Origin: an uncultured Verrucomicrobia subdivision 3 bacterium
GTDB taxonomy: Bacteria > Verrucomicrobiota > Verrucomicrobiia > Limisphaerales > UBA11358
Reading direction: 5' to 3'
DNA length: 64,000 bases
NCBI GenBank assembly: GCA_903835255.1
Contig: CAILMI010000012.1
Location: 1 to 64,000 of the forward strand
The position numbers and the translations under genes are program-made. Positions 7,585 to 41,716 of the stretch are shown piece by piece. Position 1 is the stretch's first letter, and each line of letters opens with the position of its first letter. The notes beneath the pieces were generated by a model. It worked only from the letters and a program-made list of their open reading frames with translations. It was not told the origin of the DNA and ran no database searches.

Positions 7585-8847
7585 TCATCCTCCGGCCAGC
7601 AGCTTCTCCCAGAGACCCCCGTTCAACAGTGCTTTCTGGAGAAAAGCCGATTCATCGGGGGAGGCGGATCCGGGCTCGGGTTGGAGCGGCAGATGCAGGG
7701 TGAAAGCATTGCCACCCCCCGGCTGGCTCTGGGCCTCAATCCTCCCGCCGTGATGGTGGACGATGAAAAAACAGGCCATTAAATTGATGCCATATTCCGC
7801 CGGGGCCCCGGCCGGCGCCGTGAACGGATCCAAAATGACGCTCAACGCCTCCTGAGGTAGCCCGGGCCCGTTGTCGCTCATTTTAAAAATAATTTCCGGC
7901 CGGGCACCGTTCGGATGTAATTCCGCCGAGAGCTCAATTCTGCTGCCGGCGGGCAGCAGCGCCAGCTCGTCCTGGATCAACAGTTCAAACAGCCGGTAAA
8001 ATTTGGGCCGTTCCCCCCGCAGTGTCGGAAGCGACTCCGGAATCGTGTTCTGCACGGCGATTTTTCGGGCTTCGAGCGGCGCCTGAAATTTTTCCAGTGC
8101 GGCGCCGACGGCGGCCGACAGGGATACGTCGTCCGCAAACTGGGTCGTGGCGGAGCTATCGGCCGAGGTCCGCAGGTCGCCCAGCAGGGAGTTGATTTTT
8201 TGAATCTGGCTCTGGGCGTTCTGGTGGTAGTCGCGCCAGAAATCGGGGTCGCGCAGGCCGGCGCCGCTGGCTTTTTCCTCGGACAGCTTGAGGGGCGCGA
8301 GCTCGAGAAACGTCTTCACCGCCACCATCGAGTTGCGGATGTGGTGGCTCAGGCCGGCGGCCAGCAGCCCGAGGCTCACGATGCGGTCGGCAATCATCAT
8401 GTTTCGGAGCACGGACATTTTCTCGTGCAGCAGCTGATCGCGCTCGGTCTGCACCATGAAAAACTCCAAAGCCTGACGGAGGGTGGCTTCCAGCTGCGGC
8501 GGATCCCAAGGCTTGTGGATGTACCGGTGGATCGCGCCGCTGTTGACTGCAGCAATGGCGGCGTCGAAGTCCGCAAACGCGGTCACGAGGATTCTCAGGA
8601 TTTGCGGGCGCAGCTGCCGGGCCCGCTCCAGCAGCCAGACACCCGTTTCGCCGGGCATCCGCTGGTCCGTCAGCAGCAGGCCGATCTCATCGGCGTGCGC
8701 CTCCAGCAGCGTCAGGCCTTCCCGCGCGGTCGGGGCGGTGAACACGCGGAATTCGTCGCCGAAGGCGCGCGCAAAATACTTCAGCGATTTCTCTTCGTCA
8801 TCGACGTAAAGGATGGCGAATTTCTTGTAGTCGTAGAGGGGTGCCAT
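7585..8847 (-). CDS. PhcQ/PhcR-like hybrid: receiver domain plus histidine kinase
   Basis: A 420-residue cytoplasmic protein. Residues 9-125 are a response-regulator receiver with acidic pair D16/D17, phosphoacceptor D61 (LLLTDQRMP), T89 and K112. A kinase-like region follows, with the H-box GLSHHIRNS (His168) and a GHKL ATPase domain with DNGPGLP and a C-terminal G-box. The residue after the phosphohistidine is His instead of the usual Glu. A receiver placed before a kinase domain, last in an operon with a methyltransferase and a sensor kinase, matches PhcQ/PhcR of the 3-hydroxypalmitate methyl ester signalling system. No DNA-binding output domain is present. Confidence 0.87.
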   Translation of the reverse strand: MAPLYDYKKFAILYVDDEEKSLKYFARAFGDEFRVFTAPTAREGLTLLEAHADEIGLLLTDQRMPGETGVWLLERARQLRPQILRILVTAFADFDAAIAAVNSGAIHRYIHKPWDPPQLEATLRQALEFFMVQTERDQLLHEKMSVLRNMMIADRIVSLGLLAAGLSHHIRNSMVAVKTFLELAPLKLSEEKASGAGLRDPDFWRDYHQNAQSQIQKINSLLGDLRTSADSSATTQFADDVSLSAAVGAALEKFQAPLEARKIAVQNTIPESLPTLRGERPKFYRLFELLIQDELALLPAGSRIELSAELHPNGARPEIIFKMSDNGPGLPQEALSVILDPFTAPAGAPAEYGINLMACFFIVHHHGGRIEAQSQPGGGNAFTLHLPLQPEPGSASPDESAFLQKALLNGGLWEKLLAGG

Positions 8848-8856
8848 GTTCGGTTC

Positions 8857-10218
8857 TCAGTGAGCGGTCGGTGCGGGGCTGGCTGGAAAAGCGAGGGTGA
8901 ACTCACAGAATTTTCCCGGCTCGGATTGCACGGTGATTTTACCGCCGGATTCCTGGAGGATGCGGTAGCAGATGCTCAGGCCCAGTCCCATGCCGGCCCC
9001 GACTTCCCGGGTGGTGAAGAAGGGGTCAAAAATCTTGCCCAGATGTTTCGGGTCGATTCCGCCGCCATTGTCGCGGACGGATAAAAGATTCTGTCCATTT
9101 TCAACGCGGCTTTTGATCCAGATGGTGGGAGGCTCGCCGGGGGTCGGGGGTTTCGATTTCAGAGCATCCAGGGAATTTTGCAGCAGGTTGACCAGCACTT
9201 GGATCAGCTTGTTTTTATTGGCTCGAATGGTTTGATGTTCCGCCAGCTGCTGTTCGATCTGCACGCGGTCCCGCCATTCATTGCTGAGGAAACGCAAGGC
9301 CAGGGTCACCACTTCAGCCACCTCGACTTCATCTTGCTGTTCGGTGTCCGGATGCGTGAACATCCTCAGATCCGAGACGATGGTCTGCACCCGCTTGAGG
9401 CCATCTTCGACATCGGTGAGGATTTCGGTGTAGTCGGCCTGCTGCTCGGCGGGGAGGTGCCGGCCTTTTTTTCGCAGGGTGAACAGGCCGGTGGTAGCGT
9501 AGTTCAGGGGGTTATTGATTTCGTGGATGATGCCGGCGCTCATGCGGCCCAGGGACGCGAGCTTTTCAGATTGCACCAGTTGCAGCTCGTTTTCTTTGAG
9601 CTGTTGAAGGCTCACCTCCAGCGCTTTGCGGCTTTGGTCGAGCTCGCTGCGGGAGACGAATTCCCGGGCGCGCACCCGGCTGTGGAAATACGTGCCGGCG
9701 ATGATGGCGATTCCAGAAGAGACCAGAAAAAATAGATTGCTCAGGAACAGACTTCCGTCAAAGGCCGCGGGGGAAAGCCAGCAGGCGGACACGTAGAGCA
9801 GGAGCACCAGTCCCACCGAGGCGACGCTCTGCCAGAATGGCCAGTCCAGCACCACCGCCAGCACCAGCAGCACCAGCGTGAGCCCCGCGTAATAGGGGGA
9901 CGCGCTCCCTTCCGTCGCAGCGATCATCCAGGCAATTGTGGCCGAGGGCAGGAAGAGCAGGACGCCGCCCTGGAAATGATAATATTTTTTTCCGAAGGGG
10001 GTGGAGAGGACCAGGGCGAGCCCGGCCATCAAGGCCGAGCAGAGCAGCCGCAACAGGAAAAAATCAAAAGCGTGATCTGGATAAACATACCAATCCAGCC
10101 CGCCGAAGAGCGGCACCATCCCGATGCCCAGCCAGCAGCCCCACCGGGTTTTGCGGATGGTGATTTCCCGATCGTGCTCCTGATAGGCGGCAAATAATTC
10201 TTTGGGGATCAAGGGCAT
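8857..10218 (-). CDS. PhcS-like membrane sensor histidine kinase
   Basis: A 453-residue kinase. About six membrane helices occupy residues 25-185. A coiled-coil linker (about 193-228), a HisKA box IIHEINNPLNYA and a GHKL ATPase domain follow, with N-box NLLQNSLDAL and the G-boxes DNGGGI and GMGLGLSI. It lies one base downstream of the methyltransferase gene and nine bases upstream of the receiver-kinase gene, so the three are one operon. In Ralstonia, PhcS senses a fatty-acid methyl ester made by PhcB; the same role here is inferred from gene order and architecture. Confidence 0.88.
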   Translation of the reverse strand: MPLIPKELFAAYQEHDREITIRKTRWGCWLGIGMVPLFGGLDWYVYPDHAFDFFLLRLLCSALMAGLALVLSTPFGKKYYHFQGGVLLFLPSATIAWMIAATEGSASPYYAGLTLVLLVLAVVLDWPFWQSVASVGLVLLLYVSACWLSPAAFDGSLFLSNLFFLVSSGIAIIAGTYFHSRVRAREFVSRSELDQSRKALEVSLQQLKENELQLVQSEKLASLGRMSAGIIHEINNPLNYATTGLFTLRKKGRHLPAEQQADYTEILTDVEDGLKRVQTIVSDLRMFTHPDTEQQDEVEVAEVVTLALRFLSNEWRDRVQIEQQLAEHQTIRANKNKLIQVLVNLLQNSLDALKSKPPTPGEPPTIWIKSRVENGQNLLSVRDNGGGIDPKHLGKIFDPFFTTREVGAGMGLGLSICYRILQESGGKITVQSEPGKFCEFTLAFPASPAPTAH

Positions 10219-10219
10219 G

Positions 10220-11722
10220 TCAGTCCGGCTTACGTATGTGGAGAAAGAGGTTCACCGAGGTCGGCTCTGCCATTACTCGCGTGGCGGCCCGGCAGCGATC
10301 AGGGACGAGGGACAAGAGTTGGTGGCGGTCGCGATAGATCAGCTGCCAGTCCAAGACGCACTCGATGAAATGGCGGAAGGGCTTGGTGTCATTCATGTTT
10401 GCGATCAGCATCAGGCCGCCGGGCGGCAGGGAATCATACCAGAGATCGATCAGGGCGCGGCAGGTCTGGGGCGCCAGATAATCGAATAGTCCCGCGCAGT
10501 AGATCAGGTCAAATTTTTCCGACGGCCCGGTCCGACGCTGCGTCCGTTTTAACAGTTCGTGCACCGACATTTTCTGCGCGCGGATCTCGGCGTGCCGGCC
10601 GCATTCGCGTTTTGCCTCCACCAGCTGTCGCCCGGTGTAGGCCAGGGTTTCCTCGTTGAAATCCACCAGGGTGAAGGCCGAATGGTTGCTCAGCGGGGTG
10701 GAGCGCAGAAAGGTCTGCACTTCGCGGGCCGGACCGCATCCGACGTTTAGGATGCGGGCGATTTTTCCGGTGCGGGCGGTGCGGGCGGTCTCGGCGATGA
10801 GGGTTTCGCCCAGATGAGCAATCCGGTTGCGGACGGATTTGGCCGGCCACTGGCTCATCAGCAAGAGATGAATTAATTTTTCAAAAAGCGAGCGGCCCTC
10901 CGGCTGGTTCCGGTGGATCATGTTCATCATCTCATAATCGCCCGCATGTCCGAGGGGTTTATGATAGGTGCGATGGCCGAACGGCGATCCTAAAAAAAGC
11001 TTATGCCAGTGGCGACGGACAAACTCCTGATGGACGTCGCGTGATTCCGGCGGCAGGGCGCCGAGGATGGACTCGAATTCCTCGTGCCGGCCGTTAAAGG
11101 CCCCTAAAATCCGGGGGGCGACCGTTTCCAACAGGGCCTGCTCTTCGGCGGCCGACTCACTTTCCGGATGCCTCCCAAACTCCAAACGCTCCAGCCAGTG
11201 GCGCACCCCCATAAGGTAGGACTCGACATCGGCGACCAGCACCTTGAACGCCGCCGTCATGCGGTAGTTTTTCTGCCAGTCCTGAAAAAATGCTTCGTAG
11301 GTTGCCGCCGCCAGGGGGGCGGAGCTGGGCGGCGGCTTGAAAAATGCCGTGTCCGAACCGGGGCCCTCGAGCTTGGCTTCCGCCACCAGTGACCCACCTG
11401 TGTCCACCACGCTGCTTACCACGGCCCGGCCGAAATACAGGATGCGCCGATCGCCGGTGATCTTAAAATGGCTGAGGACTTCTGAAGTCCGCAGGGTTCC
11501 GGCCAGCGGCCCGGCCTCAAATGTTGCCGTGTGGCGGGTCAACCGCGATAGGCGAGCGTGACAGTCCACGCCCTCCGCCGTTTGAAAGGTGACCTCAGTA
11601 GGGGAGGTGGCGGATGGGGTCGCGGCTCGGCTCGGCACCGCCTTCCTTTCAAGAGGGCCAACCGGGCGGTCGCGGCCATTGCTTTGGATGACGGGGCTCA
11701 TCTTCGTCCCAGAATGGAACAT
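10220..11722 (-). CDS. PhcB-like SAM methyltransferase with N-terminal PilZ-like domain
   Basis: A protein of about 500 residues. The N-terminal third resembles a PilZ-type domain. A helical region carries the motif PFGHRTYHKPLGHAGDYEMM, characteristic of this methyltransferase group. A class I SAM fold follows, with motif I ILNVGCGPAREVQTF and a later acidic VDFNEETL. Proteins of this kind are annotated as extracellular-factor 3-hydroxypalmitate methyl ester synthases (PhcB). The ATG at 11722 is chosen; 11701 is also possible. It is the first gene of the operon with the two kinases. The true substrate is unknown. Confidence 0.83.
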   Translation of the reverse strand: MFHSGTKMSPVIQSNGRDRPVGPLERKAVPSRAATPSATSPTEVTFQTAEGVDCHARLSRLTRHTATFEAGPLAGTLRTSEVLSHFKITGDRRILYFGRAVVSSVVDTGGSLVAEAKLEGPGSDTAFFKPPPSSAPLAAATYEAFFQDWQKNYRMTAAFKVLVADVESYLMGVRHWLERLEFGRHPESESAAEEQALLETVAPRILGAFNGRHEEFESILGALPPESRDVHQEFVRRHWHKLFLGSPFGHRTYHKPLGHAGDYEMMNMIHRNQPEGRSLFEKLIHLLLMSQWPAKSVRNRIAHLGETLIAETARTARTGKIARILNVGCGPAREVQTFLRSTPLSNHSAFTLVDFNEETLAYTGRQLVEAKRECGRHAEIRAQKMSVHELLKRTQRRTGPSEKFDLIYCAGLFDYLAPQTCRALIDLWYDSLPPGGLMLIANMNDTKPFRHFIECVLDWQLIYRDRHQLLSLVPDRCRAATRVMAEPTSVNLFLHIRKPD

Positions 11723-11800
11723 CTGCCCCCCCAAAACAACGCGATTGTTTGGGCTGGCCGAAGCCGTTTTTTACCCGAGCGTGGGGTTTACAACAAAAAT

Positions 11801-11849: not shown

Positions 11850-12251
11850 TTAGATTTTACCGGCCGTCACCTGATTGGTGCAACCCAGCGTTTTCGCCAT
11901 GAGGCTGATGCTAAATTTGTTCGTGCAGCTCTTGCCGCATTCGGTGAAGAACTGGTTGGTGCCGCTTCCGGAGCAGCTCAGAAGGGTATTGATGCTGAAT
12001 TTGTTCGTGCAGCTCTTGCCGCATTCGGTGAAGAACTGGTTGGTGCCGCTTCCGGAGCAGCTCAGCAGGGTGTTGATGCTGAGTTTGTTCGTGCAGCTCT
12101 TACCGCATTCGGTGAAGAACTGGTTGGTGCCGCTTCCAGAACAGCCCAGCTGCGTGTTGAAGGCGTTGTTCGTGCAACTCGTCGGCGAACCAGCGGTTGC
12201 CATCAGGGCGCCCGCGATCAGAACTGAGGCTAATATCATCAATGATTTCAT
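11850..12251 (-). CDS. Small secreted Cys-rich protein with three 28-residue repeats
   Basis: A 133-residue protein with a clear signal peptide (about residues 1-21: MKSLMILASVLIAGALMATA). The mature part contains three near-identical 28-residue repeats, each with the spacing C-x11-C-x3-C, rich in Ser, Gly, Thr and Asn. A Cys-containing cap lies at each end. I recognise no family. The even Cys pattern suggests disulphides or metal binding after export. The ATG at 12251 is chosen because it starts the signal peptide. The gene stands alone with its own terminator, which suggests strong separate expression. Confidence 0.75.
   Translation of the reverse strand: MKSLMILASVLIAGALMATAGSPTSCTNNAFNTQLGCSGSGTNQFFTECGKSCTNKLSINTLLSCSGSGTNQFFTECGKSCTNKFSINTLLSCSGSGTNQFFTECGKSCTNKFSISLMAKTLGCTNQVTAGKI
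11917..12146. repeat. Tandem 84-bp repeats inside the Cys-rich protein gene
   Basis: Three units start at 11917, 12001 and 12085, each opening TTGTTCGTGCAGCTCTT on the plus strand. The first two are almost identical and the third slightly diverged, which suggests recent expansion by slippage or unequal crossing-over. The period is a multiple of three, so copy-number change keeps the reading frame. Confidence 0.85.
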
Positions 12252-12408
12252 ACTTTTTTTTGGTTGTGTATAAATTTTACCGAATATCAAAAGTAACTAT
12301 AGCATGGCGCCCCCCGACAGGCAATTAAAATTTAATATTTTACGATGGCGGCCTTCATTTCCATCTAACGGGGCCGCCCAAGCCGGTTCCGAAACAGCCG
12401 CTATAGCT

Positions 12409-15400
12409 TCATGCCGGTGGCTTCAAACTGCGCGATCGCCACAGGAAATAAATCGCGGGATACACCGCCAGCTCCATGATGGTCGAGGTGATGACGCCGC
12501 CGACCATTGGCGTGGCGATTCGTTTCATCACGTCCGCGCCCGCGCCGTGGCTCCACAAAATCGGCGCGAGGCCGGCGATGATGACGCACGCGGTCATGGC
12601 TTTCGGTCGGACGCGCTTCACGGCGCCGTGATAAATCGCGTCGCGCAAATCGGCGGTGGTATTGAGCAGGCCTTTCTTTTTCCAGTCCGCATGGGCCAGG
12701 TCCAAGTAGAGCAGCATGACCACGCCGGTTTCCGCGTCGAGGCCAGCGAGCGCGATGATGCCGACCCAGACAGCCACGCTCAAATTATAGTCGCACAGAT
12801 AAATTGCCCAGAACGCGCCGACCAGCGAGAACGGCACCGCGAGCATGACGATGGCGGTCTTGATGAGGGACTTCGTGTTGAGGTAAATGATCAGCGTGAT
12901 GAGCAGCAGCGTCAGCGGCACGACAATCATCAGCCGTTCCTTGGCGTGCAGCATGTATTCGTATTGGCCGCTCCAGAAAAGGTTGTAGCCGCCGGGCAGT
13001 TTGATTTCTCCATGCGCCACCGCCTCATTCACGGCGCGCATGGCCATCTGCACATAGGTTCCGACATCCACGCCACGGATATCCACATAGACCCAGGCGT
13101 TTGGCACCGCGCCTTCGCTCTTGATGCCCATCGGGCCGTCCACGACCTTCACTGTCGCCAACTGGCCGAGCGGAATCTGCGCGCCGGTCGGCGTGGGGAC
13201 AACGATGTCCTCGCGCAACGCCCGCAGGTCGGAGCGGAAATCGCGATCGTAACGCAAATTGATCGTGTAGCGTTGCAAGCCCTCCACGGTCGTCGTCAAC
13301 GCCATGCCGCCGAGCGCGACCGACAAAACATCCTGCACATCGGCCAGCGTCAGGCCGTAACGCGCGATGGCCTCGCGATCAATTTCAAATTCGATGAAGC
13401 GTCCGTCCATGACGCGCTCCGCGAACACGCTGGTGGTGCCGGGAACTTTGCGGACGACAGCCTCGACCTCGGTGCCGATGCGTTCGAGCGTGGCCAGATC
13501 CGCCCCGGCGACCTTGATGCCAACAGGCGTCTTAATGCCGGTGGACAGCATGTCAATGCGCGTGCGGATCGGCATCGTCCACGCATTGTTCAATCCGGGA
13601 ATCTGCACCACTTCATTCAGCGCGTCCGTGAGTTCATCCGGCGTGCGCTGGCGGTGCGCGATGACTTTGCCGTCCCCGTCTTTGATATCCACGGCGGGCC
13701 ATTCCGACACGGGCTTGAGGCGGATGGTGGTTTCGATCATGTCCATCGGGGCGGGATCGGTGGCGGTCTCGGCGCGGCCGGCTTTGCCGAACACCTCGGC
13801 GACTTCAGGAAACGATTTTATGAGACGGTCGGTGACCTGCAGGATTTCCCGCGCCTTCGTGGGCGAGATGCCTGGAAACGTCGTGGGCATGTAAAGCAGA
13901 TCGCCTTCGTAGAGCGGCGGCATGAATTCAGAGCCGATATTCTGATACGGAAAGAGTTTTCCCACGGAGAACGCCGCATCGCGAACCTTGCCTTCGGGCA
14001 GGACGCGCGAGGCCATCCAATTCCATGGTAAAAACACCCAGATGACAATGGCGGCGGCGGCAAGGATCACCTGCCAGCGCCATTTGATGACGAAATCCAA
14101 AACCGGATGATAAATCCAGATGAGCAGGCGATTGAGCGGATTTTTCTCTACCGACGGAATTTTTCCCCGGATGAACCAGCCCATCAGCACCGGCGCCAGC
14201 GTGAGGGACAGCAGCGCGGCGGCCGCCATGCAATACGTCTTGGTGAACGCCAGCGGCTTGAACAGCCGGCCTTCCTGCTCCTCCAATGTGAATACGGGAA
14301 GGAACGAAACCGTGATGACGAGCAGCGAATAAAATAGCGTCGGGCCGACTTCCACCGCGGCGTCGCGGATGATCTGCCAATGCGGTTTTTTGCCCTGGTC
14401 ACGTTCGAGATGCTTGTGCGCGTTCTCGATCATGATGATGACCGCATCCACCATCGCGCCGATGGCGATGGCGATGCCGCCCAGCGACATGATGTTGGCG
14501 CTGATGCCCTGACCGAACATCACGAGGAACGCCATCAGCACCGCGACCGGCAAAATGAGGATGGCCACCAGCGCGCTCCGCAGATGGAGCAGGAACGCGA
14601 GACAGACAAGCGCCACAACCACGCTTTCCTCGATCAGTTTTTCCTCGAGCGTCTTCACCGCGCGGTCGATCAGCGAGGTGCGGTCGTAGTTCACCGTGAC
14701 TTTCACGTCTTCCGGCAACGCCTTCGTCGCTGTCGCCAGCTTGGCTTTCACGTCTTGGATGACTTGATAGGCATTCGCGCCGTAGCGGACGACGACGATG
14801 CCGCCCACGGTTTCGCCCTCCCCATTGGCTTCGGCGATGCCGCGCCGCATGTCGGGGCCGAACTGGATGCTCGCCACATCGCGTAGAAGAATCGGCACGC
14901 CTTTGTCGCCAATACCGACGGCGACTTTTTTCAAATCGTCGAGGCTGGTGATGTAGCCTTTGACGCGCAGGATGAATTCACGTTCCGCCAATTCCAACGA
15001 ACGTCCCCCCACCTCGCCGTTGCTGCGTTCGATGGCCATGCTGACGTCTTTCAAGGCAAGGTTGTAGGCGCGCAGTTTGGTGGGGTCCACCGTGATTTGA
15101 TATTGCTTCTCAAAACCGCCAACGCTCGCGACTTCTGCCACGCCCGGCACGGAAGTGAGTTGATATTTTAGATACCAGTCTTGAATCGAGCGCAGTTCAG
15201 CGAGGTCGCGGTTCGTGGAATTGAGCGAATACATGAACGCCCAGCCCACGCCGGTCGCGTCCGGACCGAGCGATGGCGTGACGCCCTTGGGTAACTGGCC
15301 GCTGATGCTGCTCAAATACTCCAGCACGCGGCTCCGCGCCCAATACGGGTCGGTGCCGTCCTCAAAAATCACATAAACGAACGAGTAGCCGTAAAACGAA

Positions 15401-15654
15401 TAGCCACGCACGGTTTTCGCCTTCGCCACCGAAAGCATTTTCGTGGTGATGGGATAAGTGACCTGATCCTCGATGATGTTCGGCGCCTGGCCTTCCCACG
15501 GCGTGTAGATGATGACCTGCGTGTCGGAGAGGTCGGGAATTGCATCGAGGGGGATGTTGCGCGCCGCATAGACACCGCCAAACACCAGCGCCACCGTGGC
15601 GAGCAGCACGAGGAACTTGTTCCGCAGCGAAAAATCAATGATGCGTTGGAGCAT
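12409..15654 (-). CDS. cusA: Heavy-metal efflux RND transporter, CusA/CzcA family (Cu/Ag type)
   Basis: A 1081-residue inner-membrane proton-driven pump and the third gene of a tripartite efflux operon. It has the RND layout of 12 helices and two large periplasmic loops. Family motifs include IPDLSDTQVIIYT near the N-terminus and GKAGRAETATDPAPMDM. Three Met positions that bind Cu(I)/Ag(I) in E. coli CusA are conserved in context (LLYMPTT, MDMIETT, IDMLSTG), which favours copper/silver over zinc/cobalt. The ATG at 15654 is chosen; a longer frame to 15687 translates a palindromic repeat. Confidence 0.94.
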   Translation of the reverse strand: MLQRIIDFSLRNKFLVLLATVALVFGGVYAARNIPLDAIPDLSDTQVIIYTPWEGQAPNIIEDQVTYPITTKMLSVAKAKTVRGYSFYGYSFVYVIFEDGTDPYWARSRVLEYLSSISGQLPKGVTPSLGPDATGVGWAFMYSLNSTNRDLAELRSIQDWYLKYQLTSVPGVAEVASVGGFEKQYQITVDPTKLRAYNLALKDVSMAIERSNGEVGGRSLELAEREFILRVKGYITSLDDLKKVAVGIGDKGVPILLRDVASIQFGPDMRRGIAEANGEGETVGGIVVVRYGANAYQVIQDVKAKLATATKALPEDVKVTVNYDRTSLIDRAVKTLEEKLIEESVVVALVCLAFLLHLRSALVAILILPVAVLMAFLVMFGQGISANIMSLGGIAIAIGAMVDAVIIMIENAHKHLERDQGKKPHWQIIRDAAVEVGPTLFYSLLVITVSFLPVFTLEEQEGRLFKPLAFTKTYCMAAAALLSLTLAPVLMGWFIRGKIPSVEKNPLNRLLIWIYHPVLDFVIKWRWQVILAAAAIVIWVFLPWNWMASRVLPEGKVRDAAFSVGKLFPYQNIGSEFMPPLYEGDLLYMPTTFPGISPTKAREILQVTDRLIKSFPEVAEVFGKAGRAETATDPAPMDMIETTIRLKPVSEWPAVDIKDGDGKVIAHRQRTPDELTDALNEVVQIPGLNNAWTMPIRTRIDMLSTGIKTPVGIKVAGADLATLERIGTEVEAVVRKVPGTTSVFAERVMDGRFIEFEIDREAIARYGLTLADVQDVLSVALGGMALTTTVEGLQRYTINLRYDRDFRSDLRALREDIVVPTPTGAQIPLGQLATVKVVDGPMGIKSEGAVPNAWVYVDIRGVDVGTYVQMAMRAVNEAVAHGEIKLPGGYNLFWSGQYEYMLHAKERLMIVVPLTLLLITLIIYLNTKSLIKTAIVMLAVPFSLVGAFWAIYLCDYNLSVAVWVGIIALAGLDAETGVVMLLYLDLAHADWKKKGLLNTTADLRDAIYHGAVKRVRPKAMTACVIIAGLAPILWSHGAGADVMKRIATPMVGGVITSTIMELAVYPAIYFLWRSRSLKPPA

Positions 15655-15664
15655 GGTTAAAGTG

Positions 15665-15761
15665 GGGCAGGCGTCTCGCCTGCCCAAGCCCTATGAATGG
15701 CGGAGCTGTTTATTTTACTGTGCGCGCTGACGCGCTCGTTGGGCAGGCGGGACGCCTGCCC
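15665..15761. repeat. Two palindromes between the adaptor and pump genes
   Basis: Two 21-bp hairpins, 15665-15685 and 15741-15761, share the same 9-bp stem (GGGCAGGCG / CGCCTGCCC) with different 3-base loops. A GCGCGCTGACGCGC palindrome lies between them. They fill most of the 130-bp gap inside the efflux operon and could attenuate or stabilise parts of the transcript, or may simply be REP-type repeats. Confidence 0.8.
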
Positions 15762-15784
15762 TGCTTTATTGGAGTTCGTCGTTG

Positions 15785-17620
15785 TCATTTCTTAACGGGC
15801 ACCAGATCCATTTCGCATTTTTGGCATTTGCCCGGCTGGTCGGAAATGATCTCCGGGTGCATCGGACAGGTGAATTGCGGTGTCGCCGGCAAGGCTGCCT
15901 GCGGGTGTTGTTTCAGCCAGTTTGCTTCGGCAACCTTGCCATGTTTCACGGTGGAGGTCGGAACCAGTTGCATCTCACATTTCGGGCAGATGGCCGCATG
16001 ATCCGAAACAATATCCGCGTCCACGGCCATCGGACAGGTGTAGAGCACCGGCAAATCAGTCTTAACGGCGGCGGGCTTGGCCATCACCGGGATCAGCGTC
16101 ATGGCGCACAACGGACATTTACCCGGCTTGTCCTCGTGAATGCTCGCGTGCTCCAGCAGGGGGCAGGTGTAGTAAAGCACTTTGCCGCCGGGATGGATAT
16201 TTTTCAGCGCCGAGGGGCTGGCCGACACCAACGCCATGTTGCAGATCGAGCATTTCCCCGCGTGTTCATAAACAATCGGGATGTGTTCCGGCATCGGACA
16301 AACGTAAACCGACATTTCTGTTTCCGCCTTGGCTGGCAGGGTGCCGGTGGCTTCGTTTGTAGGACTTGCGCCGGTCATTTCCGTTTTCACAGCGGTGGTT
16401 GAGCCGCGCATCTTTTCAATCGCCTCGCGTAACTGGCTTTCCGAATCCAGCAGGAATTGTCCCGAAGTTACAACCCGTTCGCCCGCGCTCAAGCCGCTGA
16501 TGACTTGAATCAAGCCCTTCTCCGATTCCACGCCCAATACCACGTCGCGACCCTCGAATTTGCCGCCGTCCAGCGCAACGAACACCGTGTTCCGCGCGCC
16601 GCTGCGCAGCACGGCCGAGTCCGGCACCAGCACCACCGAATCTTCCAGCTCCGCGTGAATTTGCGCGGAGACAAACATCCCCGGCTTCAAAAAATAGCCC
16701 GGATTCTCAAACTCCAGCCGCACTTTGGCCGTGCGCGTCTTCTCATCCACGGTCGGATAAATGAACGCCACCCGCCCGTGAAACTCGCGGTCCGGCAGCG
16801 ACGCGACTTTCACGATCGCTTCCTGCCCCAGCTTCACAAACGGCAGGTCCTGCTCATACATTTGCGCGATCACCCAGACGATGCCGAGGTCCGCCAACCG
16901 GTAAAGTTTCATGCCGGCGTCCACCATCTGGCCGGCCACGACATTTTTCTCGATCACGAAACCGGACATCGGCGCAGCCACCGTCAAGGTCTTGGTCAGC
17001 TTGCGGGTTTTCTCCAGCTCCGCGATCTGCGCGTCCGGCACGTCGAAATACTTCAGCTTGTTCAGCGCCGACTCCCGCAAGGACGCCGCGCTGGGGTCAT
17101 TGGTGGCATTCCTGAAATTGAGCGCCAGCAAAAATTCCGATTGGGCGTTGTAAAGTTCCGGCGCATAGATCTCGAACAGCGGCTCGCCGCGATGCACCAG
17201 CCGGCCGGTGGCGTCCACTTCCAGCTTTTCAACCCAGCCTTTGAACTTCGTGGTCACGTCCGCCAGCGCGGTTTCGTTGTAATCAATCGTGCCGACCGTG
17301 CGGATGGTTTTGCGCAGCGGGCCGTGAATAACCTCCGCCGTGCGGATGTTCATGTTCTGTTGCGTCGCTACGTCCACGGCGATGGCGGACGGATTGGCCG
17401 AAGCCTCCGGGCTCGCACCGCTGTTGCGAATCGGAGTCAGTTTCATCCCGCAGATGGGGCAGTTGCCGGGATGATCCTGGATCACCGACGGATGCATGCC
17501 GCAGGTATAGAGCTGTTTGTTTTCGGAGGCGTGGGCGGAAAAAACCAGTACCGCCAGCAGGCTCATCACCGCCAGGAAAAAGCCGGAGGAACGAAAAAAG
17601 AATAGCGGGAGGGGGTTCAT
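15785..17620 (-). CDS. cusB: CusB-like efflux adaptor with five heavy-metal-binding modules
   Basis: A 611-residue periplasmic adaptor with an N-terminal signal/anchor (about residues 8-30). One heavy-metal-binding module follows at about 36-63 (YTCGMHP...CPICGMKL), then the membrane-fusion core with barrel-sandwich and beta-barrel parts. The C-terminal 150 residues hold four more modules, each with CPM or CPL followed by C-x2-C-x-M. CusB-type adaptors usually carry one or none. The ATG at 17620 lies directly after the stop of the upstream TolC-type gene. The Met/Cys-rich modules probably bind Cu(I)/Ag(I) and pass it to the pump. Confidence 0.93.
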   Translation of the reverse strand: MNPLPLFFFRSSGFFLAVMSLLAVLVFSAHASENKQLYTCGMHPSVIQDHPGNCPICGMKLTPIRNSGASPEASANPSAIAVDVATQQNMNIRTAEVIHGPLRKTIRTVGTIDYNETALADVTTKFKGWVEKLEVDATGRLVHRGEPLFEIYAPELYNAQSEFLLALNFRNATNDPSAASLRESALNKLKYFDVPDAQIAELEKTRKLTKTLTVAAPMSGFVIEKNVVAGQMVDAGMKLYRLADLGIVWVIAQMYEQDLPFVKLGQEAIVKVASLPDREFHGRVAFIYPTVDEKTRTAKVRLEFENPGYFLKPGMFVSAQIHAELEDSVVLVPDSAVLRSGARNTVFVALDGGKFEGRDVVLGVESEKGLIQVISGLSAGERVVTSGQFLLDSESQLREAIEKMRGSTTAVKTEMTGASPTNEATGTLPAKAETEMSVYVCPMPEHIPIVYEHAGKCSICNMALVSASPSALKNIHPGGKVLYYTCPLLEHASIHEDKPGKCPLCAMTLIPVMAKPAAVKTDLPVLYTCPMAVDADIVSDHAAICPKCEMQLVPTSTVKHGKVAEANWLKQHPQAALPATPQFTCPMHPEIISDQPGKCQKCEMDLVPVKK

Positions 17621-17621
17621 G

Positions 17622-18944
17622 TCAGGGATTGGCCGTCGGGGTTTTATCAGGTGTGGATTCGGGTTCGGCACCGATCATCGGCAAGGCGCTTAAATCACCT
17701 AGGCCGCAATAGAGCGCCAGCTCGGAAAGGCCCTGGTATTGATTGGCTATCGAGCGGTCCAGCGTGAGCTGCGCCTCCAGCAGCGCCCGGTGCGTTTCGA
17801 GCACCTCGCGGAAAGGAGTCTGCCCGGCCTGCCATCCGGAGCGGAGGTTATCCAGCGTCGCCTCCGTGCGCGGGATGATTTGGTCGCGGTACAGCAGGGC
17901 GTCGCGTCGCGCGGCATCCACTTGGAGGGTGAGCTGATGAAGATCCTCGCGCAGGGCGGCCTGTTCGCTGGCCAGTTCCCATTGCGCGGAGGAGAGTCGC
18001 GCCTCTTCGCGCCGGACGTCCGCCCGGATCTGTCCGTAATTGAACCACGGCAGACTCATGTTGAGCCGGAGCATCTCCTGCCGGAAACTGCCGTCGCCGC
18101 TGTAATTGCGGACTTCGACGCCCGCCGAAACATCCGGATACGATTGGCGGCGGGCGACGGCCACCCGGGCCTCGGCCTGTTTCGCCTGCTGCCGTTGCAT
18201 CAGGGTCTTCGGCTCGAATTTCAGGGCCAAGTCCTCCAGGCGTGCGCTGTAGGGGACAGCTCCAGCCACCGGCGGCAGTTCCAAGGACGGCCACGGTGCC
18301 TGCGCGCTCCGGTTGAGCAGCCGGTTTAAGCTAATTTTCTCCTGCGCCAGAAGCGCGCGGTCCGTTTCCAGCTGGTTGAGGCGGCGGGAACGTTCGTTTT
18401 GGATGCGCAACACGTCCGCCAGCGGAGTCAGCCCCGCGGGCGCATTGTTTTCTTGAAGCTGCCGGAGCGTGTCGAGCCAATCCAAATCCTGCTGCCCGAG
18501 GAGGACGACGCGTTCCGCCAGAGCGGTGCGGAAGGCAGCGCGGGCGAGGTCGGCGCGCTTTTTCTGGAATTGATAATCCCGGCTGGCGTTCTCGGTGAGC
18601 AACGCGGCGCGGGCGGCCTCCCGCTCCAGCCGCGGCTTGCCGAATAGCGGCAGCTTTTGTTCGACCCCGTACAAGAGGTCGCCCTCATCCGCCCGCATGC
18701 CCTCGTTGCCGGCGACGCCGCCCATCACGAGATGCGGATCTTCCCACGTCCGCACGGCCGCCACCTCCGCCTCCGCCGCCTGTGTCAATGCTTCCGCCGA
18801 ACGGAGGGCGGGATTGTTGGTCCGCATTTCCTCCGCGAGCGGGACGAGATAGTCCGGCGTGATCACCACCGCATGGGCGACCGCAGCCACACAGGTCACT
18901 CCTGCCAGCAGGGTCGGAAGCGTGAGCGAAAAAATGCGGTTCAT
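17622..18944 (-). CDS. cusC: TolC-family outer-membrane efflux channel (CusC-like)
   Basis: A 440-residue protein with a signal peptide (about 1-25) and two long alpha-helical outer-membrane-efflux repeats rich in Ala, Arg and Leu. The sequences VEQKLPLFGKPRLEREAARA and LRLNMSLPWFNYGQ mark the start of each repeat. It is the first gene of the efflux operon and ends one base before the adaptor start codon. The lipobox Cys of E. coli CusC is not evident, so it is probably cleaved by signal peptidase I. Role: the outer-membrane conduit for metal export. Confidence 0.9.
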   Translation of the reverse strand: MNRIFSLTLPTLLAGVTCVAAVAHAVVITPDYLVPLAEEMRTNNPALRSAEALTQAAEAEVAAVRTWEDPHLVMGGVAGNEGMRADEGDLLYGVEQKLPLFGKPRLEREAARAALLTENASRDYQFQKKRADLARAAFRTALAERVVLLGQQDLDWLDTLRQLQENNAPAGLTPLADVLRIQNERSRRLNQLETDRALLAQEKISLNRLLNRSAQAPWPSLELPPVAGAVPYSARLEDLALKFEPKTLMQRQQAKQAEARVAVARRQSYPDVSAGVEVRNYSGDGSFRQEMLRLNMSLPWFNYGQIRADVRREEARLSSAQWELASEQAALREDLHQLTLQVDAARRDALLYRDQIIPRTEATLDNLRSGWQAGQTPFREVLETHRALLEAQLTLDRSIANQYQGLSELALYCGLGDLSALPMIGAEPESTPDKTPTANP

Positions 18945-29658: not shown

Positions 29659-32600
29659 TCAACTACCCGCTTTGTTGCGCAAGGTTTCGTAGAGGCCCGC
29701 GTGGTTGAGCAGGATGTCTTTCATCCCGTTTTGGACGGTAGCGGAATTTAGCGCCTGCGTGCTCATTAGGGTGTGCGCGTCCAGTGCGCCCATGATGGCG
29801 TTTAGCAACTCGGACTTCAGGTCGGGTGAGTTTGCGAACTGTTCCTTGGTGTTGTTTGCGGCCTGCTGGCGGAGCTTGTCAGACTCTAGCAGCTTGCCCT
29901 TAATCACATTGTTCACATAAACCAGTTTGTCCTGGTCGGTAAGCTCGCCCTCAAAAAGGTCGTTCACCTTTTCGATGATCTCATTCAGCAAGGCTTTCTC
30001 TTTCTCCTGCACACTGCCGCTGCCAGCTTCGGTGATTGGCTCCAGCTTTGGCATTTCTCCGGTGTTCAAAGGCATCGGTTGCCGTCCGATGTTTTTCAGG
30101 TGGTGATGCGTGAGGATCACTTTCGAGAGGTCAATGCCCTCGCGCTCGCGGCCAAACTCAAGCAGCGGTAAAAGGCGTTTGAAAAAGATTGCGCGTTTCT
30201 CAAGCGCGGTGTTGCCGTAGTCGAAAATTTGGGAAAGGAACGTGTAGAGCCGGATGAATGCGCCCAGGTCGGTCTTGAACAAAATGAGCGCGTTCAACTC
30301 GTCTTGCGCGATTTTGGCGGCGGCTTCGTCATTCTTATCCTTCGCCGTTTTCAATGCCTCCTGCGCGGCCTTGTAACGCTTCATCAAGCGGTCTTCCACG
30401 GGCGCAATCGCCGCCAGCAATTCACTCTGTTTCGCGTTCGGATTCAATTCCACCGCCACCACACGGTCAACCTCGAAGTCGTCGTAATGTCCGGCGGCAT
30501 CCAGCTTGGCGCGGAGATTATAGACAAGGTTTGGGTCGGTGGTCGCCGAGAGTTCTGCCGTCGTGTGGTAGGTCTTGAACGCTGCAAGGACTTCCTCGGT
30601 GTCATTCACGAAATCCAGCACATAGGTCGTGTCCTTGCCGGGGTGGGCGCGATTCAGGCGCGAAAGCGTCTGCACGGCCTGAATGCCTGCGAGCCGCTTG
30701 TCCACATACATCCCGCATAGCAACGGCTGATCGAAGCCGGTTTGAAATTTGTTCGCGACGAGCAGGATTTGATACTCGTCGCCTTTGAAGGCTTCTCGAA
30801 TGTCGCGGCCTTTGAGATTTGGATTGAGCGCGTGGCTGTTTTCCGTAAAACCGTCCGGGCCGGATTGCTTGTCGTTCACTTCACCGGAGAAGGCAACGAG
30901 CGTGCCGATCTTGTAGCCGTGTTCCTTGATGTATTTATCAATCGCCAGTTGCCAACGCACGGCCTCAACGCGACTGCCTACAACTACCATTGCCTTGGCC
31001 CGGCCATTCAGCAGCGGAGTGACAAATTTGCGGAAATGCTCAACCACGACTTCAACTTTTTGCGCGATGTTATATGGGTGCAATCGCACCCAGCCCATGA
31101 TGCCCTTCATAGCCGCGCTGCGTTCGACGGTTTTGTCGTCGTAGTCCTTGCCTTCATGCGCCAACTTGAACGCCAGTTTGTAAGGCGTGTAGTTTTTCAA
31201 AACGTCGAGGATAAATTCTTCCTCAATGGCTTGGCGCATGGAATAAACGTGGAACGGCGCGGGGAGATTTCCCGGCCCGGCGGGTTTGGCGGGATCGGGG
31301 CGCGTGCCGAAAAGTTCCATCGTCTTGGTTTTCGGCGTGGCGGTGAACGCGACGAAAGTGATTCCGCCATCGTCGGCCCGTGCTGCCATCTGCGCCGCAA
31401 GCACGTCGTCCATGCTCACTTCGCCGCCGTCGTTCAACTCCTGCAATTCCTCGGGACTCAACACCGCCTTTAGTTTTGCGGCGGCTTCGCCGGTCTGCGA
31501 ACTGTGCGCTTCATCGGCGATCACGGCAAAGCGTTTGCCCTGCGTAGCTGCGAGCTTGCGGACAGCTTCCAACGCAAACGGAAAGGTCTGAATGGTGCAA
31601 ACCACAATCTTCTTGTCGCCCGACAAGGCTTCGGCCAACTCACCGCTCTTGCTGCCTTCGCTGCCTTTGATGGTGGCAACCACGCCGCTCGTGCGCTGGA
31701 AATCAAAGAGGGCTTCCTGAAGTTGTGAATCAATCACCGTGCGGTCGGAGACGACTAGCACCGTGTCGAAAATCTTTTTGGCCGTGGCATCGTGCAATTC
31801 AGCGAGAAAGTGCGCCGTCCATGCAATCGAGTTCGTCTTGCCTGATCCTGCGGAGTGCTGGACGAGATACTTTCCGCCGGGGCCGTCTTTTAGCACGGCC
31901 ACTTGGAGCTTCCGCGTCACGTCGAGTTGGTGAAAGCGCGGGAAAATTACCTTCGTGATCTGCTTCTTCTTGTCACGTTGGGCGATGAGGTAACGCCCAA
32001 GAATTTCCAGCCAGCTTTCACGCGCCCAAACTTTTTCCCATAGATAGGCGGTGCGGTGGCCTGCGGGGTTCACCGGGTTGCCTGCCGCGCCGTCGTTGCC
32101 TTGGTTGAAGGGCAGGAACACCGTAGCCGGGCCGTCCAGCTTCGTGACCATGTGGACTTCGCTGTTGCTCACTGCGAAATGCACAAGCGCCCCGTTGGGA
32201 AACGACAACAACGGTTCGGCGGCTTGGCCTTTGGGCTTGGGGTTGCGGTCAAAACGATATTGGTCAATCGCGTCGCCGATGCTTTGGGTGAAATCAGTTT
32301 TCAATTCCACCGTGGCGACGGGGATGCCGTTGAGGAACAACACTAGGTCAATGCTGTTTTCGTTGTGCTGGGAGTATTTCACCTGCCGCACCACGCGCAA
32401 GCGGTTGGCGGCGTAACGGGCGAGGATTTCGGGATTGATGGCGAGGGCGGGTTTGAACTCCGCCAGCTTCAACGGTTTTTTCAGGCCAAGCAGTTCAACG
32501 CCGTGGCGCAATACATCCAACGTGCCGCGTTGGTCAAGTTGGTCGCGCAGGCGGGCGAGCAAAGTTTCACCCGCTTTGTCGCCGTGATTTTTGACGAGGA

Positions 32601-32769
32601 TTTCCCATGCTTGGGGCTGCGTGGCTTGCACCCATGCTAGAACATCCGCTGGAAACAAAGCCTGTGCGCGGACATAGCCCGCTGCATCGCCCTCAGCATA
32701 GAGCCAGCCGTGGGTGGCAAGGTGCTGGCAAATCTCCGTCTCGAAACAGATTTCTTTATGCAGGCTCAT
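29659..32769 (-). CDS. hsdR: Type I restriction enzyme, R subunit
   Basis: A 1036-residue translocase-nuclease that cuts unmodified DNA in complex with HsdM and HsdS. The N-terminal PD-(D/E)XK nuclease has IDLVLFLNGIPVATVELKTD. The SF2 motor has Walker A QHSAGSGKTNS, DEAHSSQ and FTATPKTK, and a helical C-terminal region follows. Length is normal and no frame break is seen. It overlaps hsdS by four bases (ATGA), so the three subunits are one operon read hsdM-hsdS-hsdR. Confidence 0.96.
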   Translation of the reverse strand: MSLHKEICFETEICQHLATHGWLYAEGDAAGYVRAQALFPADVLAWVQATQPQAWEILVKNHGDKAGETLLARLRDQLDQRGTLDVLRHGVELLGLKKPLKLAEFKPALAINPEILARYAANRLRVVRQVKYSQHNENSIDLVLFLNGIPVATVELKTDFTQSIGDAIDQYRFDRNPKPKGQAAEPLLSFPNGALVHFAVSNSEVHMVTKLDGPATVFLPFNQGNDGAAGNPVNPAGHRTAYLWEKVWARESWLEILGRYLIAQRDKKKQITKVIFPRFHQLDVTRKLQVAVLKDGPGGKYLVQHSAGSGKTNSIAWTAHFLAELHDATAKKIFDTVLVVSDRTVIDSQLQEALFDFQRTSGVVATIKGSEGSKSGELAEALSGDKKIVVCTIQTFPFALEAVRKLAATQGKRFAVIADEAHSSQTGEAAAKLKAVLSPEELQELNDGGEVSMDDVLAAQMAARADDGGITFVAFTATPKTKTMELFGTRPDPAKPAGPGNLPAPFHVYSMRQAIEEEFILDVLKNYTPYKLAFKLAHEGKDYDDKTVERSAAMKGIMGWVRLHPYNIAQKVEVVVEHFRKFVTPLLNGRAKAMVVVGSRVEAVRWQLAIDKYIKEHGYKIGTLVAFSGEVNDKQSGPDGFTENSHALNPNLKGRDIREAFKGDEYQILLVANKFQTGFDQPLLCGMYVDKRLAGIQAVQTLSRLNRAHPGKDTTYVLDFVNDTEEVLAAFKTYHTTAELSATTDPNLVYNLRAKLDAAGHYDDFEVDRVVAVELNPNAKQSELLAAIAPVEDRLMKRYKAAQEALKTAKDKNDEAAAKIAQDELNALILFKTDLGAFIRLYTFLSQIFDYGNTALEKRAIFFKRLLPLLEFGREREGIDLSKVILTHHHLKNIGRQPMPLNTGEMPKLEPITEAGSGSVQEKEKALLNEIIEKVNDLFEGELTDQDKLVYVNNVIKGKLLESDKLRQQAANNTKEQFANSPDLKSELLNAIMGALDAHTLMSTQALNSATVQNGMKDILLNHAGLYETLRNKAGS

Positions 32770-34010
32770 GCGGCTTCCTTTTTCAGTAAGGGGCGGACAT
32801 CAATCTGGCCGGTAACAACGGCTGAAATCAGTGCAGTCCGGCGTTCTTTGAGAAGTTCGATTTGCTTAGAAATCTCAATTAACAGTTTATTCCTCCAATA
32901 AACGGCTTGTGTGACCTTCTCTTGAGTTTGCATGTCAGGAACGGGGATTTTTTCCTTCAGTAGCGAATTTATATTTAGAGGTCTATTTCTGCCTGCCGCG
33001 CCGCGTGAGTTTTCGTTCAATAAAAAATCACCGTGCTTTGTTGATAGCAAAGCAAGTAAGTATTCTGTCAGGACAACCCCAGGTTTTCCGCGTAGCACCG
33101 GATAGCGATGAGATACTACACATCCTGTGTCTTCTTTACCGGCTAATGCAACTGCACCCTCCCATGCAAATTGCCCGCTGATAATGAGGTCTCCATCTTC
33201 AATCCAGAAAAAGTCAGAGTCCCCCATGTCATCTTTCTCGCTGGCATCTTTATGAAATAGCCCTCTGCCTCTATTGTAGAGGCCAATGCGAGTGTATTCT
33301 TCACCTTCTTTTTGGATAACTGGGCGCGAAATAATTTGAGCTACCGAACCGAATCGTAGCTGCTTGGTTTCTGGCAAATCAAAGGCGGACAAAACAAGAG
33401 ATTTTACTTTTTCTGTAAGTAACACAATCAATCGCTCTTGCTCCGCTATCAGTTCATCAATCTTCGCCGTCTCCCGATCCAGAAATTCGAGAATCGCTTG
33501 TTGCTCACCCTTTGGAGGGACGCCGACGTATATTGACTTGAGGATGTCCCAATTAATTGAGCAACGATGTTCCAAAATGCCATTTCCAAAAGATTGCGCA
33601 TAGGTTTGAAACGCACGGTTTTCAAAAATCCGAAATGCGAAACGCGATTCGACAACATCGTTTTGTGGTTTTAGCACAATGTAAACAGGGCTACAAACAC
33701 CGTCATAATCGGACAGCCCGTATGAGCCTATCCCATAGTTCATGCTGTTTATGACGAAATCCCCACGGGTGACGATTTTACACTTGGTCAAGTCTTCTGG
33801 TTTTTTGTTCCCAACGTCACCTTTTTCCGCATACGGAATGATGCCGACATTTGCCATCAGTGAGAGGTAGTCCTGACACTTTGCACCATCATTTTTGGCT
33901 GTCCGCTCATGCACAATTGCTCGGCATGGCAGCATTTCCCAATGCTCCGGCACTTCGCCCAGCCTCTCCACGCCACTGCTCTTGTATTTCTGGTAGCTGG
34001 GGAAACTCAT
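32766..34010 (-). CDS. hsdS: Type I restriction enzyme, specificity subunit
   Basis: A 414-residue protein with two target-recognition domains and the conserved helices between and after them. The first domain starts [22 protein letters not shown]; the central helix has [24 protein letters not shown]; the C-terminal helix has [24 protein letters not shown]. It sets the DNA sequence recognised by the complex. The gene is AT-richer than hsdR and hsdM, as is common for variable specificity genes. It overlaps both neighbours by four bases. Confidence 0.95.
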
Positions 34011-35749
34011 TTGGTCAGTCCCCCGATCATGGTCAATATGCGGTCGGTGACGCCTTTCAACTCAGCGTCAATTTCACTTAATGGGCGCGGCGGTTGGAAA
34101 ACATAGAAGTGCCGGTTGAATGGAATATCATAGCCAACCTGGGTCTTGTCGTGGTCAATCCACGCATCCGGCGCGTGAGGCAATACCTCGCGCTTGAAAT
34201 AATTTTCCACGTCTTCGCTCAACGGAACATTTTCGGTGTCGCGCAAACTGGAATCTGGCACCGGCTTGTCTTTGCCTTTGCCCTTGGTGCCGAGAATGAT
34301 TTTGCCTTTCGCATCGCGCTCCGGGCGCTCAACGGTGATGGTGCGATAGCCAAAATCCTCGTTTTTGAAAATGAGGCTGATCGGCACGCCGTCCTTGGAA
34401 TCTTTTTTAAAATTGCCAAACTGCTTGGTGATTTCCTCGATGTGGTCGGGACTGAGTTCTTTGCGTTTGCAGCCAAGACTTTTACGCATCTTCTGCCAAA
34501 AGCTGCTGGCGTCAATCAACTGCACCTTCCCTTTACGCGCGGTGGGCTTCCGGTTGCTGACAATCCAGACGTAGGTGTTGATAGGGGTATTGTAAAACAT
34601 ATCCGTCGGTAAACCGATGATGGCTTCGACAAGATCATTTTCCAAAACGTAACGCCGTATCTCGCTCTCGCCCGAACCTGCGCCGCCAGAAAAAAGTGGC
34701 GAGCCATTGAGAACAATTCCAAAGCGGCTGCCGCCGTCCACGGCGGGGCGCATTTTGGAAATTAGATGCAGCAGAAAAAGCAGCGAGCCATCGCTGATGC
34801 GCGGCAAGCCGGGACCGAACCGGCCATTGAAACCTTGTTCCTCGGCTTCCTTGCGGACTTCCCGCTCAATCTTTTTCCATTCCACGCCAAAGGGCGGATT
34901 GGAAAGCGAGTAGTCGAAATGTTTCCCCGGCAGGCCGTCAGCGGAGAGGGTGTTGCCAAGGATGATGTTGGCGATGTCCTGGCCCTTGATGAGCATGTCT
35001 GCCTTGCAGATGGCGTAGGACTCCGGGTTTAGTTCTTGCCCATACATGACGAGCCGGGCGTCGGGATTCAGGCTGGCAAGATGTTCCCCGCCCACACTCA
35101 ACATGCCGCCGGTGCCTGCCGTAGGATCGTAGAGCGACCGCACGACGCCGGGCTTGGTCAGGGCTTCATCATCTTCGATGAAAAGCAGATTAACCATGAG
35201 CCGGATGACTTCACGCGGGGTGAAGTGTTCCCCGGCGGTCTCGTTGGAAAGTTCGGCAAATTTGCGGATGAGTTCTTCAAACACCGCACCCATTTGGGCA
35301 TTGCTGACGACTTCGGGATGCAGGTCAATGGCGGCGAATTTTTCCGTGACGAGATAGAGCAGCCCGGACTTGGCGAGTTTATCAATCTGAGTGTGAAACT
35401 CGAAACTCTCAAAAATGTCGCGCACGGCGGGCGAGAATGCTTGCACGTAGGCGCGGAGATTTTCGCCGATGTGGTCTTGGTCGCCCATGAGCTTCTTCAA
35501 GTCGAGCGGCGATGTGTTGTAAAAAAGCTGACCGGATTTTTTGAGCAAGAAAGGTTCGGGGTTCACTCCGGCCTTCGTGCGTTTTTCCAACTCGGCAAGC
35601 ACTGCGGCCTTGGTTGGCTCCAGGACGCAATCAAGACGGCGCAAAACGGTGAATGGCAAAATGACTTTGCCATATTCGGATTGCTTGTAATCGCCGCGCA
35701 ACAAATCGGCGACCGACCAGATGAAGGATGAAAGATTTGTGTTACTCAT
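34007..35749 (-). CDS. hsdM: Type I restriction enzyme, DNA methyltransferase subunit
   Basis: A 580-residue N6-adenine methyltransferase subunit. The N-terminal helical domain (about 1-150) is followed by the SAM site [10 protein letters not shown] and the catalytic NPPF within SNPPFGVEW. It protects host DNA and forms the core of the restriction complex. The ATG at 35749 is chosen because the family starts with a short helix leading to [30 protein letters not shown]. It is the first gene of the operon. Confidence 0.96.
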
Positions 35750-36192
35750 GTGTTTTCGATACCGGAAAAAGGAGTTGCGAAAGTGGTGCAACCGTCACCC
35801 TTCCGAAAAGCATAGTCAAAATTCTTGATGGCTTGTGCAAACATTGGCAAATCGGTTGTTAAAAACGGCGCTGGCATTCAATGTCTTATAGCGAGAAATA
35901 GCGACGAAATAAACAAAAATGGCACAGAGCGAGCGGCACACGGTTTGATTGGGCTGCTTGGGCGGCTGGGCGGGCATTCCAGCCGCCCGGTTTCCGGTCA
36001 ATCCTCCCCCGGCAGCATAACGGTGGTGGCCGGTTCCGGCGCATCCAGACGATGCCCCAAAGTCGCCCTGCTCGTGTGTAGGGATGGAAGATTATTCATA
36101 CGAGCAAATCTGCGGAAGCTTCTTTGCAACACGGGTAGAATCTGTTAGAAATGGCTAGCAGCGAACCGCAGCAACACATTTAGGAAAATCGT
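35750..36192. other. Intergenic region between hsdM and the TIR-like fragment
   Basis: No gene is seen in these 443 bases. A perfect 10-bp hairpin (GGGCGGCTGG / CCAGCCGCCC) lies at 35960-35988. The hsdM promoter should lie in the part nearest 35750, but no clear boxes stand out. An AGGA ribosome site precedes the ATG at 36193. Confidence 0.6.
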
Positions 36193-41623: not shown

Positions 41624-41634
41624 GCGATGGTTGG

Positions 41635-41716
41635 TGCGGATGATCGGACTTGAACCGATACTCTGTAAGGAACGGGAACCTAAATCCCGCGCGTCTGCCA
41701 ATTCCGCCACACCCGC
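41635..41716 (-). tRNA. tRNA-Leu (UAG)
   Basis: On the minus strand the acceptor arms GCGGGTG and CATCCGC pair with one G-U, with discriminator A and encoded CCA (41632-41634). The anticodon stem-loop CGGGATTTAGGTTCCCG gives anticodon TAG. A long variable arm fits a class II leucine tRNA. It lies inside the island, 56 bp from a tyrosine recombinase gene, so it is a likely integration target. Confidence 0.93.

Follow-up and report, generated by a model that had tools for sequence, protein, structure and literature searches.

Could a compact three-gene operon from an uncultured verrucomicrobial bacterium be a counterpart of the Phc system of Ralstonia, in which a diffusible ester is made by PhcB and sensed by PhcS (PMC8578825 and PMC11960443, in the portions available), and through what would it act? 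The operon lies on the minus strand of the 64,000-nucleotide stretch of DNA analysed here (the window). Its first gene (10220..11722; ATG at 11722, alternative TTG start at 11734) is predicted to encode a PhcB-like SAM-dependent methyltransferase (Pfam Methyltransf_25/12); the second (8857..10218), a PhcS-like membrane sensor histidine kinase of short form, made up of a sensor and one kinase (HisKA and HATPase_c); and the third (7585..8847), a PhcQ-like receiver protein (Response_reg, HisKA and HATPase_c) with a degenerate C-terminal HisKA/HATPase region and no DNA-binding domain. An earlier note on this DNA had described three ORFs separated by gaps of 1 bp and 9 bp, the last encoding a receiver-first kinase-like protein devoid of a DNA-binding domain; the ORF coordinates and the Pfam matches bear out this description. 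The order had been read as phcB-phcS-phcR/Q. Reciprocal best matches and the placement of gene 1 in the PhcB clade uphold phcB-phcS-phcQ; the PhcR part of the reading does not stand, gene 3 being of the Q type. To judge from the sequences, the operon is phcB-phcS-phcQ. Upstream of it are a small cysteine-rich ORF (11850-12290) that contains three 84-bp repeats, 88-100% alike, and for which no clear family could be assigned, and CusA/CusB/TolC-like metal efflux genes (12409-18944). Further along the window, a stretch of lower GC (26000-47400) carries type I restriction genes (hsdR, 29659-32769; hsdM, 34007-35791), a MobQ-type relaxase gene (39629-40525) and an ORF at 41773 that adjoins tRNA-Leu (41632-41716); this stretch looks like an integrated mobile element.

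A search of named genomes with an alignment of the methyltransferase yielded at least 584 confirmed relatives, the best 80 of which were used. All of these 80 were from Burkholderiales or Proteobacteria bins, a bias probably due to ranking by the first sequence, which is from Paraburkholderia. The Burkholderiales relatives are surrounded by phcB-phcS-phcR-phcQ operons, and their proteins have lengths like those given for Ralstonia (PhcB 464-468 aa, PhcR 368-374 aa and PhcQ 336-337 aa; PMC8578825, available part). The methyltransferase, about 29-33% identical to PhcB, was placed in the PhcB clade and not in an unrelated one in a 59-row tree that has long outgroup branches and includes 14 Burkholderiales PhcB rows; this and the other trees are quick builds with SH-aLRT support only. 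PhcB residue R22, alteration of which reduced the QS signal in a Ralstonia mutant (PMC6989110, available portion), is conserved in all five Burkholderiales proteins checked and aligns with H59 of the window protein, a difference that counts against the signalling reading given below. The Phc identity is anchored on the Cupriavidus proteins and on this R22 conservation, in place of a direct R. solanacearum sequence. A PDB sequence search with the methyltransferase alone gave no match, a profile search gave weak generic matches only, and Foldseek with the full model returned generic class I methyltransferases. Taken together with the kinase and receiver comparisons below, the homology of the three window genes to the Phc enzyme, sensor and relay of Ralstonia and Cupriavidus is real.

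Cupriavidus PhcS found 16 matches in the window genome, the window kinase coming first (E 2e-70; runner-up 9e-21), and the two proteins are full-length reciprocal best matches (32% identity over residues 9-443 of 445). The catalytic boxes of the window kinase are intact (H232, N348 and the G boxes). A rough hydropathy check of the six-helix sensor proposed in the earlier note put the number of hydrophobic segments ahead of residue 180 at about five or six. Gene 2 can be classed as a PhcS-type membrane histidine kinase. The S proteins of Verrucomicrobiota are mostly about 900 aa long and consist of a sensor, kinase 1, a receiver and kinase 2. The operons of these long-form relatives have the same gene order as that of the window, whose kinase has neither their first kinase nor their receiver and in this resembles PhcS, itself a sensor joined to one kinase. 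In the kinase tree the window kinase domain groups with kinase 2 of the long-form proteins, to which it is 51-68% identical within the order. Among the 19 S proteins visible in the window's order, 10 are long and 9 short, all of the short ones belonging to the window's genus, and the kinase tree requires two changes between the forms within the order. The short kinase is likely to have arisen by one or two deletions, the direction of change not being proven.

The receiver domain of gene 3 (8458..8835, minus strand) keeps D61, T89 and K112. In its C-terminal kinase, the asparagine of what we take to be the N box is lost (LIQDELAL) and the presumed G2 box is altered; we infer that this domain is a pseudo-kinase. 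The protein shares a DQRMPG motif and an ERDxLLxEKxSVL linker with Q-type proteins. Cupriavidus PhcQ identified gene 3 as its first match in the window genome (1.4e-42; next match 1.6e-9), and when gene 3 was compared with Burkholderiales, its top match was phcQ and its second the neighbouring phcR in 4/4 genomes searched. The receiver tree places gene 3 among verrucomicrobial Q-type receivers, with the PhcR receivers on a separate branch. Tree and motifs rule out a PhcR identity and point to a PhcQ-type receiver protein. PhcR, the second receiver-kinase, is absent from the operon, which has three genes only, the third of the Q type. Deletion of PhcR in strain OE1-1 left most QS phenotypes largely unaltered (PMC8578825, same portion); in some Paraburkholderia, a receiver is all that is kept. 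Ralstonia PhcQ R154 and PhcS L161 have no match by number in Cupriavidus; an arginine three positions on from the R154 number in Cupriavidus PhcQ aligns with R155 of gene 3, which is suggestive only.

The output of the operon was approached through the regulator on which PhcQ acts in Ralstonia, where it binds and stabilises PhcA (PMC13320629, in the part available). Only one LysR gene is present in the window genome, which is 97.5% complete; its product has 293 aa, and the best NCBIfam match, below cut-off, is a selenium-metabolism LysR. No PhcA-like LysR protein (347 aa) was found in this genome. The lack of a phcA-type regulator, remarked on earlier for the sequence in view, thus holds for the genome as assembled. 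As no PhcA was found, the output must differ from that of Ralstonia, and the PhcQ-PhcA route would be impossible here unless PhcA sits in the portion that the assembly lacks. In sum, the operon resembles the Phc systems of Ralstonia and Cupriavidus in its PilZ-fold/SAM methyltransferase, membrane kinase and receiver protein and in their order and tight packing, but differs from them in lacking PhcR and a PhcA-like LysR and in having a PhcQ-like protein that retains a degenerate kinase domain.

The distribution of the genes was determined in a phylum sample of 288 genomes (cut-offs of E<=1e-10 for the methyltransferase and E<=1e-30 for gene 3). The methyltransferase matched in 19 genomes, nearly full length in 17 and as short methyltransferases only in two (G015 and G066). 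Gene 3 matched in 17 genomes, identical to the 17 with a near-full-length methyltransferase. All three genes lie together in 15 of these genomes, represented by the window and by 14 of the 15 loci L023-L037. The two exceptions are G121, whose nearest Q-type genes are ~210 kb from the methyltransferase gene, and G234, whose Q-type gene is on a different contig. The 40 genomes closest to the window genome all belong to its order, are mostly drafts and are not independent of each other; 29 of them have the methyltransferase, including 21 of the 25 from the window's genus. Of 20 order-level loci (19 genomes), 18 have the genes for methyltransferase, S and Q side by side and the other two end at contig edges; the gene order is kept across families. 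The earlier note had asked whether the three genes co-occur elsewhere: every one of the 17 genomes has both gene 1 and gene 3, and the order-level loci agree. The association of gene 1 and gene 3 is far beyond chance.

Genes related to lipid traffic accompany the operon in the relatives. A FadL/TodX porin (PF03349) is encoded in 29/29 of the phcB-positive genomes among the 40 from the order; strong FadL matches occur in 2 of the 11 phcB-negative ones (G313 and G325), or in 4 when weak fragments are counted (G315 and G320). Fisher's p for the association, with kinship among genomes ignored, is 2e-7 for strong matches and 1.8e-5 with fragments. Within the window's genus, FadL is present in 21/21 phcB-positive versus 0/4 phcB-negative genomes. 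The fadL gene is at most 1.3 kb from phcB in 22 of the 29 genomes, about 5 kb away in G309, and on another contig in G000, G298, G307, G311, G316 and G326. Its orientation relative to phcB varies among loci, which argues against mere frozen synteny, with the caveat that a DAHP synthase gene also adjoins the locus (seven loci, two families). An alpha/beta hydrolase gene adjoins phcB in 5/20 order-level loci, and a REC-GAF-PAS-HATPase gene follows phcQ in 11/20. In the window genome these genes lie away from the operon: its one fadL gene and an overlapping hydrolase gene, the product of which is 66% identical to that of L174, are on contig 33, and a REC-GAF-PAS-HATPase gene (74% identical) is on contig 29. 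In three other genomes (G131, G048 and G039; L031 5-5827, L034 6-5714 and L036 131-5539) a reducing type I PKS gene, of at least 1800-1940 aa, is found directly upstream of the phcB-like gene; the domain scan covered one of these genes, and BLAST matched the other two. Enterobacter plasmid matches to the methyltransferase also fall within an annotated type I PKS gene. Linkage to fadL, the hydrolase gene and the REC-GAF-PAS-HATPase gene sets the verrucomicrobial relatives apart from Phc: in the 80 Burkholderiales loci, a FadL-like gene was seen in one and a hydrolase-like gene in one, so that the FadL link is unseen in the known Phc system. A precedent is the FadL-AHL system, in which a FadL porin moves a long-chain quorum signal; there the signal is an AHL, and synthase and receptor are unrelated to those described here.

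The operon is probably the core of a PhcA-independent system for lipid signalling between cells, homologous to PhcB-PhcS-PhcQ, in which an ester would be made, moved and sensed. By homology, the PhcB-like protein would methylate a (hydroxy) fatty acid or a related acyl chain. The FadL-family porin would help the hydrophobic ester through the outer membrane, and an alpha/beta hydrolase may trim or destroy it; both roles are suggested by the neighbourhoods in relatives and by the fadL-hydrolase pair elsewhere in the window genome. The membrane kinase would sense the ester and autophosphorylate at H232, from which the phosphate would pass to D61 of the PhcQ-like receiver, activity and transfer being predicted from the residues observed. 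The PhcQ-like protein would then act through a partner other than PhcA. The leading candidate is the REC-GAF-PAS-HATPase protein, whose gene adjoins phcQ in 11 of the 20 relatives' loci and is unlinked in the window genome. The putative function of the whole would be quorum sensing. Alternatively, the system might sense and handle fatty acids privately, with no signal passing between cells: FadL would import them, the methyltransferase and hydrolase would modify or detoxify them, and the kinase and receiver would report on them. In E. coli, FadL serves as a nutrient porin; in the relatives its presence tracks phcB, which lipid genes adjoin. We nevertheless consider this explanation unlikely, given that the homologous PhcB and PhcS of Ralstonia make and sense a diffusible ester and that the PKS gene beside phcB in three genomes suggests dedicated synthesis of an acyl chain.

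A different role is brought to mind by the N-terminus of the methyltransferase. The protein had been described as a PilZ/SAM methyltransferase. Its class I SAM methyltransferase domain (10223..10849, minus strand; motifs NVGCGPA and YCAGLFDY) is recognised by Pfam, and a PilZ Pfam match is absent from the window protein and from 16/16 family members scanned. The N-terminal domain (11366..11602, minus strand; residues 45-123 of the 504-aa reading), modelled alone with AlphaFold, has six strands at a mean pLDDT of 85.5. In VIA/Foldseek comparisons its best match to a PilZ structure has Z 11.2 and an rmsd of 2.3 across 88 aligned residues, and nearly all of the top 27 structure matches are PilZ or PilZ-containing proteins; Foldseek E-values against PilZ structures are weak (best 7e-3). 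The description thus holds, the model assigning a PilZ fold to the N-terminus. This domain is absent from 8/8 short methyltransferases compared and from L193, an N-terminally short row of the PhcB clade. A second, parallel three-gene set in G199 (L041 7505-11346) encodes a methyltransferase of 319 aa that has no PilZ-like domain, a kinase of 497 aa with 41% identity to that of the window, and a receiver-kinase of 417 aa; on a Pseudanabaena plasmid (L044 8043-10662), a gene for a short related methyltransferase converges on a kinase and receiver gene. As the CheR1-MapZ complex ranks 20th among the structure matches and the methyltransferase gives a weak Pfam match to CheR, the enzyme might act on a protein or a small polar molecule under PilZ control, in the manner of MapZ on CheR1, as part of a c-di-GMP-linked intracellular regulator. 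Membership in the PhcB clade and the lipid-gene neighbourhood argue against this, as does the PilZ-like domain, in which no canonical c-di-GMP motif was seen by eye; the explanation is very improbable. That a generic methyltransferase came to lie beside an unrelated two-component pair by chance is conceivable in that histidine kinases are common (witness the 16 PhcS matches), but is ruled out by the 17/17 co-occurrence of genes 1 and 3 in the 288 genomes, the reciprocal best matches and the gene order kept across families.

Lipid signalling homologous to PhcB-PhcS-PhcQ being the preferred reading, its history can be considered. The Burkholderiales PhcB proteins nest among verrucomicrobial rows of the methyltransferase tree; verrucomicrobial monophyly is not rejected (p-AU 0.184, in a test from which six rows had been dropped, namely L193, L038 and the four longest of the short methyltransferases). 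A survey of phc genes confined to Proteobacteria describes a restricted spread in Betaproteobacteria (PMC10653808, available part), and in the accessible portions and listings of the open-licence PMC literature we found no report of a Phc system outside Proteobacteria or of phc genes in Verrucomicrobiota. Tentatively, and with some doubt, one might imagine an old PhcA-independent lipid-ester QS system in Verrucomicrobiota, its signal being dealt with by FadL and the hydrolase and in some lineages made by the PKS, from which the Phc system of Ralstonia and Cupriavidus would be a transferred branch, PhcA having come later.

As 17 of the 288 genomes from the phylum, and the majority of those sampled from one order, have the core, the finding would extend fatty-acid methyl-ester signalling to abundant, poorly cultured bacteria. 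FadL, the hydrolase and the PKS would provide concrete partners for the traffic and synthesis of the signal, a step that goes without explanation in the available portions of the Phc papers. The comparison would also reveal a minimal machine, consisting of B, S and Q, as distinct from the lineage add-ons R and PhcA.
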